DNA of 64,000 bases from Myxococcales bacterium (GTDB taxonomy: Bacteria > Myxococcota_A > Polyangia > Haliangiales > Haliangiaceae), in NCBI GenBank assembly GCA_016720595.1, contig JADKKI010000028.1, positions 103,624 to 167,623 of the forward strand, read 5' to 3'. Position numbers and translations under genes: made by a program. The notes beneath the pieces were generated by a model. That model did not search any database. It saw only the letters and a program-made list of their open reading frames with translations, and was not told where the DNA came from. This document shows positions 44,417 to 49,651 of this stretch, one piece after another; position 1 is the first letter of the stretch, and the number at the start of each line of letters is the position of its first letter.

Positions 44417-45934
44417 ATGCGTCTCGTCTCGATCGCCCTCGGCCTCTCGCTGTTCACCGCGTGCTCGAGCAAGGAGGAGGCTCCGAAGGAGCAGCCCAAG
44501 GTTGTTGCTCCCGCGCCGCCCCCGCCGCAGGTCAAGAAGCCCGTCGACACCAAGCCGCTCCCCCAGCTCGCCGCGGATCCGGGCGGCGCCACCGGCAAGG
44601 CGCTGCAGGGCACGCGGTTCGGTGGCCTCGGCATCGATGCGCCGCGCGACCTCGCGATCACCAGCGCGGGCGAGGTCTATGTCGCGGGCTACTTCGATCA
44701 GGAGATCGATTTCGGAGGCACGATCGGCAAGAAGGCGCCGGCCACCGACGATCCCAAGGCCAAGGTCAAGACCTCGGATGGCTACCTGGTCAAGGTCGGC
44801 GCGGACGGCAAGCTCGCCTGGGCGCAGACGTTCGGCGCCAAGCGCGATGACACGGCCAACGGCGTGGCGGTGCGCGGCGACAAGGTGGTGGTGGTCGGCA
44901 ACTTCCTCGACGAGATCAAGCTCGGCGAGTTCACCAAGAAGTCCCTCGGCTCCGACGATGCGTTCGTCGCGATGTTCGACAAGGACGGTTCGATCCAGTG
45001 GGCGTGGAACTTCGGCGGCGTCGACTCCGATGGCGCGAACGCCGTGGTCGCATCGCCGGATGGCGGCTGGATCATCGGCGGCTCGTTCTCCGCGACCTGT
45101 GACTTCGGCACCACCCAGCTGAAGAGCCGTGGCGGGACCGACGCGATGCTCGTGAAGCTCACGGCGGGCGGCGATCTCGAGTGGGTGAAGCAGTTCGGCG
45201 GCGCCTACGCCGACACGATCACGCACCTCGCGGTGGACGGCCAGGGCAACATCTACGTGCAGGGCCAGTTCAAGGACCTCTCGGACTGGGGCGGGAAGGC
45301 CAAGCTCAAGGCGGGCGGCGGATCAGACAACGACGTCGTCCTCGCGAAGTACGATCTCAACGGCGACTACGTGTGGGCGCAGCGGTTCGGCAACGCGTTC
45401 AACGACGTCGCCGGCGGCGTGGCCGTGGACCCCGCAGGGCACGTGACGATGGTCGGCTCGTTCGACAAGAGCGTGTCGTTCGGCGAGGGCGACGATCACA
45501 CCTCGCTCGGCGAGTCCGACATCTTCGTCGCGCGGTTCACGCCGGGCGGCAAGCTCGAGTGGGCGCGGACGATGGGTGCCGAGCGTGAGGACATCGCGTT
45601 CGGAGTCGCGGCCGATGCGGCGGGCAACACGGTGACCACCGGCTGGTACCAGGGCGCCGTCGATTTCGGGAAGGGCCCGATCACCAGCAAGGGCAACAAG
45701 GACGTGTTCGCGCTCAAGCTCGACGTGAAGGGCGCCACGATCTGGGCACAGGGCTTTGGCGACAAGGACCACGATCAGGGGCGCGCCGTGGCGATCGACG
45801 ACAAGGGCGCGGCCTACGTCGGCGGCATCTTCCGGTTCGCGCTCGGTGCGGTGTCGCCCGCGCTCGAGTCCGTGCGTGCTGAAGGCGATCGGATTCCCAA
45901 GCCGGATACCTTCGTGCTCAAGCTCGATCGCTGA
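44417..45934 (+). CDS. Beta-propeller (SBBP-repeat-like) lipoprotein
   Basis: ATG 44417 starts a lipoprotein signal (VSIALGLSLFTAC, Cys15) followed by a Pro/Lys linker. The remaining 450 residues are at least seven repeats of about 55 residues with a pattern like VAVDPAGHVTMVGSFDKSVSFG followed by DIFVARFTPGGKLEWARTMG. This is the SBBP/beta-propeller pattern frequent in myxobacterial surface proteins. No enzymatic residues are visible; a ligand-binding or structural role is likely. It is divergent from the HEAT/cyclophilin gene, with 128 bp between the starts. Confidence 0.8.
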   Translation: MRLVSIALGLSLFTACSSKEEAPKEQPKVVAPAPPPPQVKKPVDTKPLPQLAADPGGATGKALQGTRFGGLGIDAPRDLAITSAGEVYVAGYFDQEIDFGGTIGKKAPATDDPKAKVKTSDGYLVKVGADGKLAWAQTFGAKRDDTANGVAVRGDKVVVVGNFLDEIKLGEFTKKSLGSDDAFVAMFDKDGSIQWAWNFGGVDSDGANAVVASPDGGWIIGGSFSATCDFGTTQLKSRGGTDAMLVKLTAGGDLEWVKQFGGAYADTITHLAVDGQGNIYVQGQFKDLSDWGGKAKLKAGGGSDNDVVLAKYDLNGDYVWAQRFGNAFNDVAGGVAVDPAGHVTMVGSFDKSVSFGEGDDHTSLGESDIFVARFTPGGKLEWARTMGAEREDIAFGVAADAAGNTVTTGWYQGAVDFGKGPITSKGNKDVFALKLDVKGATIWAQGFGDKDHDQGRAVAIDDKGAAYVGGIFRFALGAVSPALESVRAEGDRIPKPDTFVLKLDR

Positions 45935-46068
45935 GCATCGCGCGGCTGTCCAGATCTCCTGTGTTCGCCCTTCCACGGCTCGGGATCCCGAAAAACGGCC
46001 GTCCAGCCGTTCCTCTCGTCGCCGAGCGGTGTAAAAGAGCCGCACCTCAATTTTCCAGGGAGATACAG

Positions 46069-46299
46069 ATGGCGAAAGCAAAGAAGGGCAAGTCGGGCGG
46101 CGGTGGCGGCAAGCCGGCGGAGATGCTGCTGGTCAGCTCCAAGGTTCGCGGGATGATCAAGGACGCGGGCTGCAACACGGCCGGTGACGCGCTCGACGGC
46201 CTCAACGGCTACGTCGCGTGGCTGATCGGCCAGGCAGCGAAGCGTGCTACCGAGAACGGCCGCAAGACCGTTCGCGCGCACGACTTCATCGTCATGTAA
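46069..46299 (+). CDS. Bacterial histone-fold DNA-binding protein with Lys/Gly-rich tail
   Basis: The ATG at 46069 is chosen because AGGGAGA lies five bases upstream; the longer frame from 45961 runs through non-coding sequence. The 76-residue protein starts with a flexible tail (MAKAKKGKSGGGGGKPAEM, residues 1-19) and continues with one histone fold: helix 1 VSSKVRGMIKDAG, helix 2 TAGDALDGLNGYVAWLIGQAAKRATENG and the hallmark RKTVRAHDFIV (loop L2 RKTV plus helix 3). This matches single-domain bacterial histones such as Bdellovibrio Bd0055, which dimerise and bind DNA. It stands alone between a propeller lipoprotein and a PilZ/PEGA gene. The fold call is strong; its mode of DNA binding is unknown. 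Confidence 0.85.
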   Translation: MAKAKKGKSGGGGGKPAEMLLVSSKVRGMIKDAGCNTAGDALDGLNGYVAWLIGQAAKRATENGRKTVRAHDFIVM

Positions 46300-46387: not shown

Positions 46388-49300
46388 GTGACGACTGGGG
46401 TGCCGATCTACCTGGTGTCGGCCTGTGCATCGGGCGAGGAGTTCGTCTCCGCGTTCCGCCGCTACGCCGATCGCAATGGCGTGGTGTTCATTCCGATCGC
46501 CCAGCCGCTGACGCCCGGCCGCAAGGGTCGGTTCGCGCTGACCCTCAAGGACGGCGGCGTGATGGTCGAGGGTGTGGCCGAGGTGGTGTCATCGGCGAAG
46601 ACCCCGTCGGTGCTCTACGGCCGGGTCGGCATGACCCTCAAGTTCACCGAGCCCGACGAGCCGAGCAAGACCACCCTGGGCGAGCTCGAGAAGGCGCGGC
46701 TCTCGATGAAGCCCTCGCCCCCGAGCCTGGCGCCCCGCCCTGCCGACGTGCCTGCCGAGCCGCGCGCCGTTCCACCGCCTGCCGGCGGGCGCGTCGATGC
46801 CACCAACGCGCTGGCCGAGTGCGTGGTGATCGGCGATCTCTCGGTGCTGACCAGCGACGAGGTCCCGCCGAGGATGGGCGCGCCGAAGTTCGTGGTGCCC
46901 TCGATCCCTTCGGTCGCGGGCGGTCGTCCGAAATCGCCGAGCCTGCCGCCCACGCCGACCACGCTCGGCACGCCGCCACTCAAGGTCCCGACGGGTCAAC
47001 AGCCCACCGTCGCCAAGCCCGCCGCGCCGCCGCTGTCCCCTCCGCGCGCGGCCACGCCGCCCGCAGCGCTCCCCGTGATCGCTCCGAAGGACACCGTGGT
47101 CGGCATGCAGGCGGTCGACAAGGCGCCCGCGGCTCCCATGCCTGCACCGGCACCCGCGGTCGCTCCGAAGGACACGGTGATCGGCATGCAGGCGCTCGAG
47201 AAGGCGCCCGCCGGCATCGTCGCCGCCGCAACGCCCACGCGCGACGATCCCACCATGCCCACGCCGGCGAGCGTCGCGGCGGCGGCCGCCGCGGGCTCGC
47301 GCGACAAGCACGAGATCCTGCAGACGGTCCGCGGACCTGCGCCCGGCGTCGACCTGGTGTCGCCGAACAAGCTCGATCTCAACGAGACGATGCGCGGCCC
47401 CGCGCCGAAGCTGCCGCCGGCCGCCGCGCCTTCGCCCCGCCCCGGGTCGACCACGCCGCCGCCGCTCCCTCGGAACGCGACGCCCGCCCGGGCCATGCCC
47501 GTCGTCGCGAAGACGCCCACCCCGCCCGCCGCCACGCCCGTCGTCGCGAAGACGCCCACGCCGCCCGCCGCCACGCCCGTCGTCGCGAAGACGCCCACGC
47601 CGCCCGCCGCCACGCCCGTCGTCGCGAAGACGCCCACGCCGCCCGCCGCCACGCCCGTCGTCGCGAAGACGCCCACGCCGCCCGCCGCCACGCCCGTCGT
47701 CGCGAAGACGCCCACGCCAGCGACCGCGCTGCCGGTCGCCACGGCCTTGCCTCCGGAGCTCGCCGTCGCGTCGATGTCCGACGAGGACGCCGACGAGATC
47801 GACGACGCGGACGAGGCGACGGATCTCACGGAGCTCCCGCTGCTGCCTCCCGACGAGCTGGCCGCGCCCACCGCGGCGAGCCCCGTCGAGAAGACCGGGC
47901 GCGAGCCGCGCAAGACGGTGATGGGGATCGCGGTGGTGCCGTCCGGCGTCCACGTGCTCCCCGCTGCACCCGCGCGCCAGATCGTGAGCGAGGAGGAGGC
48001 ACGCGACACCGCGGTGATGGAGGCGCAGGAGGAGCTCAGCGGGCCGGTGATGATCACCAGCGCGCGACCAGCCGAGCTCGGCGGCTTCGATGTGCACGGC
48101 GCGACGCAGCCTGCGGGCGCGAAGCTGCCGTCCGCGGTGATGAAGGCGACGGTCGAGGAGTCCACTCCGAGCGGCGACTGGACGATCACGCCCGGGGAGA
48201 ACGGCCCGAAGCTCGCGCTGCGCGACAAGCCCCCCGGCGCCACGCCAGCGGTCGAGATCGGAGATCCCGAGGAGGATGCGCCGATCAAGGCGATCCCCGC
48301 GGGGCCTATGACGGGCGACTACATCATCGCGCTCGATCCTTCGCAGCCCGATGGTTGGAGCGAGCCGTCGAAGGTCGTCCCTCGCCCGGAGCTCCCGCCC
48401 GAGCAAGCCGGGCCACCGGTCTCCGCGGTCTCGAGTGAGAAGGATCTCGACTCCGAGGCGAAAGCCTCGCCGGAGCCCAAGGCTGAGGAGGCCAAGGTCC
48501 ATATCGATCCCACGCTGATCGAGCCGCTGCAGCCCCTGCAGCCGATCGATGACTTCGACGACGAGCCTGCCCTGCCCCCGCCCCCTTCCGCGTCTCATCC
48601 CGCGATGGCGGCGGCCGAGCTGGGTGACGCGCCGTTGCCGCCGACGCCCATCCCCTCACGCCCGACGCCGATGCCGATGCCGGGCCCGATCCCCGGTTCG
48701 TACGTCACACCGGTGCCGGGCCAGGTCCAGCACTCGCACGCCTCCGGCGCCATCCCGATGGAGCTGTTGCCCGGGCAACCGCCCCGCTATCCCACCGGCT
48801 CGCAGTCCTCGATGGACGCGCCGATCGCGAGCAAGCGGCGGATGTTCGTCATCATCGCAAGCGCGGCTGTGGCGTTGCTGCTCGTCGTCGTGCTCGCCGT
48901 GGTGCTCGGCGGGAAGAAGACGAAGGGTGGGGATGAGGATCCCGCGGGCGGCGATGGCAGCGGCAGTGCGGTGGACGATCACGCAATCACCTCTCCCTCC
49001 GCGCGGGACGCGAACGCCGGCACCGAGCCGCAGCTTCAGACGCCGCCACAGCCCAACGGGGGGGCCAATGGTGGGCCCAACGAAGGGAGTGCTCAGCAGG
49101 CTGTCGTCGATCCCACACCGCCACCCGATGCCGCGGTGACCGCCCCCCTGACCGTGGATGCCGCGGTGCCTGCGGTGCCCGCAGATGCCGCGGTGCAGGT
49201 CGCCGCTGCCACCGAGTGCGAGGTCGCGGTGTCGTCGGCGCCGCAGGGCGCGGAGATCGTCCTCGGCAAGGACGTGCTCGGGACCACGCCCGCGACGCTC

Positions 49301-49651
49301 AAGCTGCCGTGTGGCGTCGAAGCGCGGCTCACCGTGCGCAAGCAACGGTTCGTCTCGGTCCAGCGTCTGGTGACGCCGAAGAGCCTTGGACAGAAGCCCG
49401 TGCGGATCGCACTCGCCAAGGTGATGTTCACGGTCAAGGTCAGCTCCTCGCCCGCGGGCGCGAACATCTTCCTCGGCAGCAAGTCGCTCGGGATCACCCC
49501 GGCGGCGATCAAGCTGCCGGCCTTCGAGCTGTCCACGCTGAAGATCTCGAAGGACGGCTACGTGCCCGACCTCCAGAAGATCACGCCGAAGACCAACAAC
49601 CTCTCGATCTCCTCGGCCCTGAAGAAGGCCGCGAAGAAGGTCGGCAGGTAG
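46388..49651 (+). CDS. PilZ-like domain protein with Pro-rich linker, TM helix and PEGA repeats
   Basis: The 1087-residue protein starts at GTG 46388. Residues 1-95 resemble the PilZ-type domain of myxobacteria (YADRNGVVFIPIAQPLTPGRKGRFALTL, GRVGMTLKF). Residues about 100-810 are low-complexity Pro/Ala/Thr with short recurring peptides (DTVVGMQ/DTVIGMQ, ETMRGPAPK) and a 39-bp tandem repeat. One transmembrane helix follows (FVIIASAAVALLLVVVLAVVLGG, about 820-842). The outer part ends with two PEGA domains (about 943-1010 and 1011-1078, for example VAVSSAPQGAEIVLGKDVLGTTP). It may connect a cytoplasmic signal to the envelope. The RDD kinase gene follows after 4 bp, so this protein may be its partner or substrate. 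Confidence 0.78.
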   Translation: MTTGVPIYLVSACASGEEFVSAFRRYADRNGVVFIPIAQPLTPGRKGRFALTLKDGGVMVEGVAEVVSSAKTPSVLYGRVGMTLKFTEPDEPSKTTLGELEKARLSMKPSPPSLAPRPADVPAEPRAVPPPAGGRVDATNALAECVVIGDLSVLTSDEVPPRMGAPKFVVPSIPSVAGGRPKSPSLPPTPTTLGTPPLKVPTGQQPTVAKPAAPPLSPPRAATPPAALPVIAPKDTVVGMQAVDKAPAAPMPAPAPAVAPKDTVIGMQALEKAPAGIVAAATPTRDDPTMPTPASVAAAAAAGSRDKHEILQTVRGPAPGVDLVSPNKLDLNETMRGPAPKLPPAAAPSPRPGSTTPPPLPRNATPARAMPVVAKTPTPPAATPVVAKTPTPPAATPVVAKTPTPPAATPVVAKTPTPPAATPVVAKTPTPPAATPVVAKTPTPATALPVATALPPELAVASMSDEDADEIDDADEATDLTELPLLPPDELAAPTAASPVEKTGREPRKTVMGIAVVPSGVHVLPAAPARQIVSEEEARDTAVMEAQEELSGPVMITSARPAELGGFDVHGATQPAGAKLPSAVMKATVEESTPSGDWTITPGENGPKLALRDKPPGATPAVEIGDPEEDAPIKAIPAGPMTGDYIIALDPSQPDGWSEPSKVVPRPELPPEQAGPPVSAVSSEKDLDSEAKASPEPKAEEAKVHIDPTLIEPLQPLQPIDDFDDEPALPPPPSASHPAMAAAELGDAPLPPTPIPSRPTPMPMPGPIPGSYVTPVPGQVQHSHASGAIPMELLPGQPPRYPTGSQSSMDAPIASKRRMFVIIASAAVALLLVVVLAVVLGGKKTKGGDEDPAGGDGSGSAVDDHAITSPSARDANAGTEPQLQTPPQPNGGANGGPNEGSAQQAVVDPTPPPDAAVTAPLTVDAAVPAVPADAAVQVAAATECEVAVSSAPQGAEIVLGKDVLGTTPATLKLPCGVEARLTVRKQRFVSVQRLVTPKSLGQKPVRIALAKVMFTVKVSSSPAGANIFLGSKSLGITPAAIKLPAFELSTLKISKDGYVPDLQKITPKTNNLSISSALKKAAKKVGR
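47498..47731 (+). repeat. Intragenic 39-bp tandem repeat (PVVAKTPTPPAAT)
   Basis: Five units of 39 bp coding PVVAKTPTPPAAT are followed by a sixth that changes to PVVAKTPTPATAL. Units 2-5 are identical; unit 1 differs by one base. The near-perfect identity indicates recent expansion or active homogenisation inside the Pro-rich linker. Confidence 0.9.

Follow-up and report, generated by a model that had tools for sequence, protein, structure and literature searches.

Among the described bacterial histones, HLp of Leptospira perolatii belongs to the face-to-face (FtF) alpha3 type: it is a tetramer that wraps DNA (PDB 9qt0, 9qt1, and 9qt2), and the roles of its tetramer and RD-clamp residues have been described (PMC12701072). 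According to Schwab et al. (2024), tails are common and mostly basic in bacterial FtF histones, and nucleosomal histones are defined by a long alpha3 of about 10 residues (PMC11390915). A 2023 paper describes most bacterial singlet histones as having no long tails (PMC10627809). Here we analyzed a histone gene in a 64,000-nucleotide stretch, hereafter the window, of contig JADKKI010000028.1 from a Myxococcales bacterium. The open reading frame (ORF) that an original prediction, made from the DNA alone, had placed at 46069-46299 (+) is translated into 76 residues, MAKAKKGKSGGGGGKPAEMLLVSSKVRGMIKDAGCNTAGDALDGLNGYVAWLIGQAAKRATENGRKTVRAHDFIVM. Judged from its sequence, it encodes a genuine tailed FtF alpha3 histone of an already known bacterial type. 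We consider it likely that this histone of a Kofleriaceae-type myxobacterium forms a tetramer wrapping DNA, with tails adding contact, and acts beside HU. What appears to be new is that the tail head is conserved across the lineage and that two tail styles exist on one fold; a literature search, confined to one collection, found no publication about histone tails in Kofleriaceae.

Histone fold and class

46069..46299, + strand: FtF-type alpha3 histone gene, 76 aa, stop codon included (translation, PDB match, homologues, AlphaFold2)
46120..46296, + strand: histone fold, residues 18-76 (AlphaFold2: alpha1 23-32, alpha2 39-62, truncated alpha3 70-74)
46243..46287, + strand: residues 59-73, which hold R59, N63, R65, D72, and F73, the positions of the FtF tetramer and the RD clamp (residue match to HLp)

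The single-chain AlphaFold2 model gave one histone fold behind the tail, as the original prediction had proposed, and residues 6-16 have a predicted local distance difference test score (pLDDT) below 50. HLp is the nearest solved structure by sequence (E = 7e-10, residues 17-73). The alignment over residues 17-73 is free of gaps with 28 of 57 residues identical, and the DNA-contact positions of HLp are mostly similar in the window protein. No Pfam family matched at E ≤ 10, and the NCBIfam archaeal-histone model scored 17.7 bits, below its cut-off of 50. A chance ORF was rejected: of 1344 candidates scored, 1342 reach E ≤ 1e-3, and the protein matches a solved histone at the E-value given above. 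The few source names among the 1342 proteins include Kofleriaceae, Myxococcales, and Deltaproteobacteria metagenome-assembled genomes.

The sequence and fold features of FtF histones were found: three helices and two loops in the AlphaFold2 model, in line with the PDB sequence match; a shortened alpha2; a truncated alpha3, five residues long in the model where the class has 3-4; and the dimer-dimer Arg/Asn together with the RxTxxxxD motif, namely R59, N63, and R65-K-T67...D72. The FtF Arg and Asn are present in 238 of the 240 proteins in the two sets of relatives described below. The modelled alpha3 is too short for a nucleosomal archaeal or eukaryotic histone, and the tail, having neither Cys nor His, does not form the N-terminal ZZ zinc finger of a ZZ histone.

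Start codon and translation signals

46057..46063, + strand: Shine-Dalgarno site AGGGAGA, 5 nt between its end and the ATG

The longest exact match to the anti-Shine-Dalgarno (anti-SD) sequence is four bases in the window and three to six bases in 22 relatives with upstream sequence, being just three in L013, L074, and L075. Averaged over the window and these relatives, the match ahead of the tail start is 4.7 bases, and that ahead of the inner Met, which is present in 16 of the 23 sequences, is 2.9 bases (three at Met19 of the window). Because the matches are longer there, the start before the tail is well supported, and the MAKAK head of the best 120 of 1342 matches agrees with it. The ribosome-binding site of the original prediction is thus present, but calling it ideal was generous for a four-base match. 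The inner Met was rejected as the start because MAKAK is kept in relatives and the Shine-Dalgarno signal is stronger before the tail. A longer frame of 112 aa with a GTG start (45961-46299) was rejected as well, since it begins upstream of the Shine-Dalgarno site and the sites of relatives favor the MAKAK start. So was a phage origin: a pattern scan of viral contigs matched 25 stretches, none of which encodes a relative.

Conservation of the tail

46069..46086, + strand: conserved tail head MAKAKK, residues 1-6 (listed homologues, codon analysis)
46087..46119, + strand: residues 7-17, a spacer rich in Gly that contains Lys8 and Lys15 and is predicted to be disordered (AlphaFold2, homologues)

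The tail of the window protein comprises 17 Lys/Gly-rich residues, five of which are lysines. This count is unusual when set against five neighbouring proteins, of which Lys makes up 4.4% (binomial 7e-4), yet 5 of the 3437 17-residue stretches of those proteins likewise reach five Lys. Among the best 120 of the 1342 matches, which include the window's own and, like the second set of 120 below, are biased towards similarity as best-listed proteins, MAKAK is found in all 120 and MAKAKK in 115; the conservation on which the original prediction had staked its tail is there. Tail length in this set is 14-21 (mean 17.4), and the Lys plus Arg count is 5 or 6 (mean 5.07) and not correlated with length (rho 0.14, p 0.12). 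Among the spacer residues, Gly is the most frequent (628 of 1473). The composition resembles that of eukaryotic tails, as the word "eukaryote-like" had implied, but descent from eukaryotic histone tails was rejected, since no analysis gave evidence linking them.

We then compared synonymous (pS) and non-synonymous (pN) differences. In 24 genes, codons 2-6 have a pS of 0.79 and a pN of 0.11, against 0.49 and 0.18 for the histone fold. In a core of 12 genes, chosen by us without L009 and L013, whose different tails are included in the 24-gene figures, codons 2-6 have 0.78 and 0.06, and the fold has 0.42 and 0.12. Ala at position 2 uses all four codons (GCC in 11 of 24), and Lys at positions 3 and 5 uses both. 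As synonymous codons differ while residues stay, the tail head appears to be conserved at the amino-acid level, which points to selection on its residues, within the limits that a pS of about 0.8 nears saturation and that sequence pairs are not independent.

The sister-lineage protein L074 is matched by 970 proteins, of which the best 120 were examined. [MV]AK starts 110 of these and [MV]AKAK starts 98, after a script had trimmed everything upstream of the last MAK, or of AK; this trimming may inflate the count of MAK starts. Their tails, in which Lys and Ala predominate, extend to about 20-30 residues, and their Lys plus Arg count (mean 8.5, range 2-17) rises with length (rho 0.89). We call these tails H1-like, as a label for composition only.

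In the order of genome G003, histone matches occur in 29 of 35 genomes at E ≤ 1e-3 and in 27 at E ≤ 1e-12, absences counting as weak because genome completeness is not given. The FtF histones of these 27 genomes start with [MV]AK in 26 (V being a GTG start) and with [MV]AKA in 23. The original prediction's statement that tails are rare in bacterial histones is thus wrong, in line with the report of Schwab et al. on FtF histones (PMC11390915). The exception, in genome G032 (L077:1297-1680, +), is a tail-less 128-aa chain of two tandem histone folds, with Pfam matches to CENP-X and DUF1931 below cut-off.

A broader profile, which also picks up other histone types, was matched at E ≤ 1e-5 by 152 of the 377 genomes sampled across the phylum, with at most 15 candidates scored per genome. 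Among 25 newly fetched phylum loci, the short tblastn query found no match in five and a spurious one in three; of the 17 read, nine start with [MV]AK, two with MAAK, and six represent other kinds of protein, ZZ fingers being present in some. Relatives from Bdellovibrionota, Elusimicrobiota, and some Myxococcota mostly have 5-8 residues before the fold, usually MAKK; L011 and L015 have 13, and six archaeal relatives have two. L011 and L015, located on separate contigs of the same assembly (JACRCT01), are near-identical histone genes, either paralogues or strain variants. The marine archaeal relatives L035-L041, L049, and L050 have two alpha3-type folds per frame, joined by a Gly/Ser linker.

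The tail could instead be kept for translation rather than for DNA, an explanation that we regard as rather unlikely. MAK starts favor expression; MAK(A/K)K would be a good start for abundantly made proteins, and the spacer would have drifted through slippage of GGC repeats, the genome being 70% GC. The spacer codons are indeed mostly GGC or GGT, spacer length varies, and the short-tailed relatives from the three phyla named above retain little beyond MAKK. However, the codon usage at positions 2, 3, and 5 indicates that residues rather than bases are kept, the charge in the window clade stays at 5-6 despite varying length, and the basic tails of the sister clade reach well past the start region.

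Proposed mechanism

In the favored reading of a DNA-wrapping tetramer with basic tails, two chains would form a dimer, and two dimers would join face to face via R59/N63/R65 into a ring-like tetramer, as in HLp. The rim would hold DNA, again by analogy with HLp, through S24/K25/R27/K31 of alpha1, T37/G39 of loop 1, and K66/T67 of loop 2. The four tails, disordered and each bearing five lysines along a flexible Gly spacer, would extend from the rim and may add non-specific, salt-sensitive contact to the same or a neighbouring duplex, the histone acting next to HU as an additional nucleoid protein. We infer the torus-shaped homotetramer and its DNA wrapping from HLp, and the putative tail function only from charge and conservation; the gene, its start, the predicted fold, the FtF residues, the tail conservation, and HU in related genomes are shown by the present analysis. 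A dimeric, DNA-bending histone such as HBb of Bdellovibrio is improbable, because bacterial dimers, as characterized by Schwab et al. (PMC11390915), lack the FtF Arg/Asn, and both R59 and N63 are present here, as is the pair in nearly all listed relatives.

Other nucleoid and histone proteins in the same genomes

PF00216 (HU/IHF) matches, some of them partial, occur in all 35 genomes of the order, and the histone is therefore probably an extra nucleoid protein alongside HU. ZZ histones occur in 30 of these genomes at E ≤ 1e-36, 27 covering nearly the whole profile and three partial. FtF and ZZ histones are found together in 22 genomes, FtF only in five, ZZ only in eight, and neither in none. 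Because eight genomes hold a ZZ histone without an FtF histone, the former is independent of the tailed histone. By manual reading, its zinc-ligand spacing equals that of D0LYE7, save one Cys two residues later.

A signalling role for the tail, as a peptide that is modified or that is read by ZZ histones or by the stand-alone ZZ-like proteins described next, is very doubtful: the head is conserved as residues, the two histones often co-occur, and eukaryotic ZZ domains bind H3 tails, but either histone occurs without the other in 13 genomes in all, and Schwab et al. (PMC11390915) deem tail binding unlikely, pocket residues not being conserved in bacterial ZZ domains. We give as little credence to the wider idea that the AKAKK head is a recognition or modification peptide throughout the order, that is, bacterial chromatin-tail signalling with two lineage-tuned tail styles.

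The stand-alone ZZ-like zinc-finger proteins have about 65-80 aa, with the pattern MASLVCATCRKLI...CWEKH...ARHRKA, and occur in 24 of the 35 genomes by manual count. Eleven were read (L116-L126, e.g. L122:762-953, +); Pfam gave zf-FCS and MYND for them at sub-cut-off scores only. In genome G021, a 217-aa protein (L087:1849-2499, -) combines a Cro/C1-type helix-turn-helix (HTH_26, 1.2e-6; HTH_3, 2e-6) with a C-terminal alpha3-type histone fold (5.8e-13); neither "HTH" nor "helix-turn-helix" appears in the body of the article by Schwab et al. (PMC11390915).

Genomic neighbourhood

44420..45934, + strand: SBBP beta-propeller protein, upstream neighbour (Pfam), present in 12 of the 13 Kofleriaceae-type loci
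46388..49651, + strand: PEGA-domain protein, downstream neighbour (Pfam, PEGA only), present in 12 of the 13 Kofleriaceae-type loci

Scanning a single genome for each species yielded 52 loci, whose titles are Myxococcota-type, Bdellovibrionota, Elusimicrobiota, and archaeal records. We read 44 of them, leaving out L042-L048 and L052, the titles of which name archaea. The Kofleriaceae-type group consists of 13 loci (L001-L010, L013, L014, and L017), and the two neighbour exceptions, L010 and L017, are where contigs end. Neither neighbour was matched in the other 39 loci (tblastn E ≤ 1e-8), though many of these are truncated. The histone gene is located in a conserved Kofleriaceae-type (Myxococcota) neighbourhood, which bears out the myxobacterial origin originally suggested. 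At 47498-47731 of the window, the PEGA protein carries a 13-residue PVVAKTPTPPAAT-type repeat, present as six copies in tandem, of which the last has diverged.

Significance and comparison with known histones

In one lineage of bacterial histones, selection appears to maintain a basic, disordered tail, which corrects the impression of tails as exceptional among bacterial histones. The same fold and head carry two tail styles, one Gly-spaced with constant charge and one H1-like with charge growing with length. These would provide a natural experiment on the role of histone tails in cells that have HU but no nucleus.

The window protein shares with HLp the single alpha3 fold, the R/N/R tetramer residues, the RD clamp, and most DNA-contact positions. 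It differs in its 17-residue Lys/Gly tail, HLp being a protein of 63 residues with a shorter N-terminus and the first 6-7 residues unresolved. The HLp species is described as having no HU (PMC12701072), whereas genomes related to the window's have it. Like HBb (Bd0055 of Bdellovibrio bacteriovorus; 8fvx and 8cmp), the window protein has an alpha3 fold and an RKTV loop, but HBb is reported as a DNA-bending or -coating dimer (PMC10627809, PMC11390915, and PMC11317129) of the class without the FtF Arg/Asn. ZZ histones (D0LYE7 of Haliangium ochraceum) also have the histone fold and co-occur in genomes of the window gene's relatives; they are separate proteins with an N-terminal zinc finger in place of the basic tail. 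The FtF histones surveyed by Schwab et al. (PMC11390915) already include Myxococcota members and positive tails, and the window protein resembles them; beyond that survey are the MAKAK head conserved in a lineage and the two tail styles.
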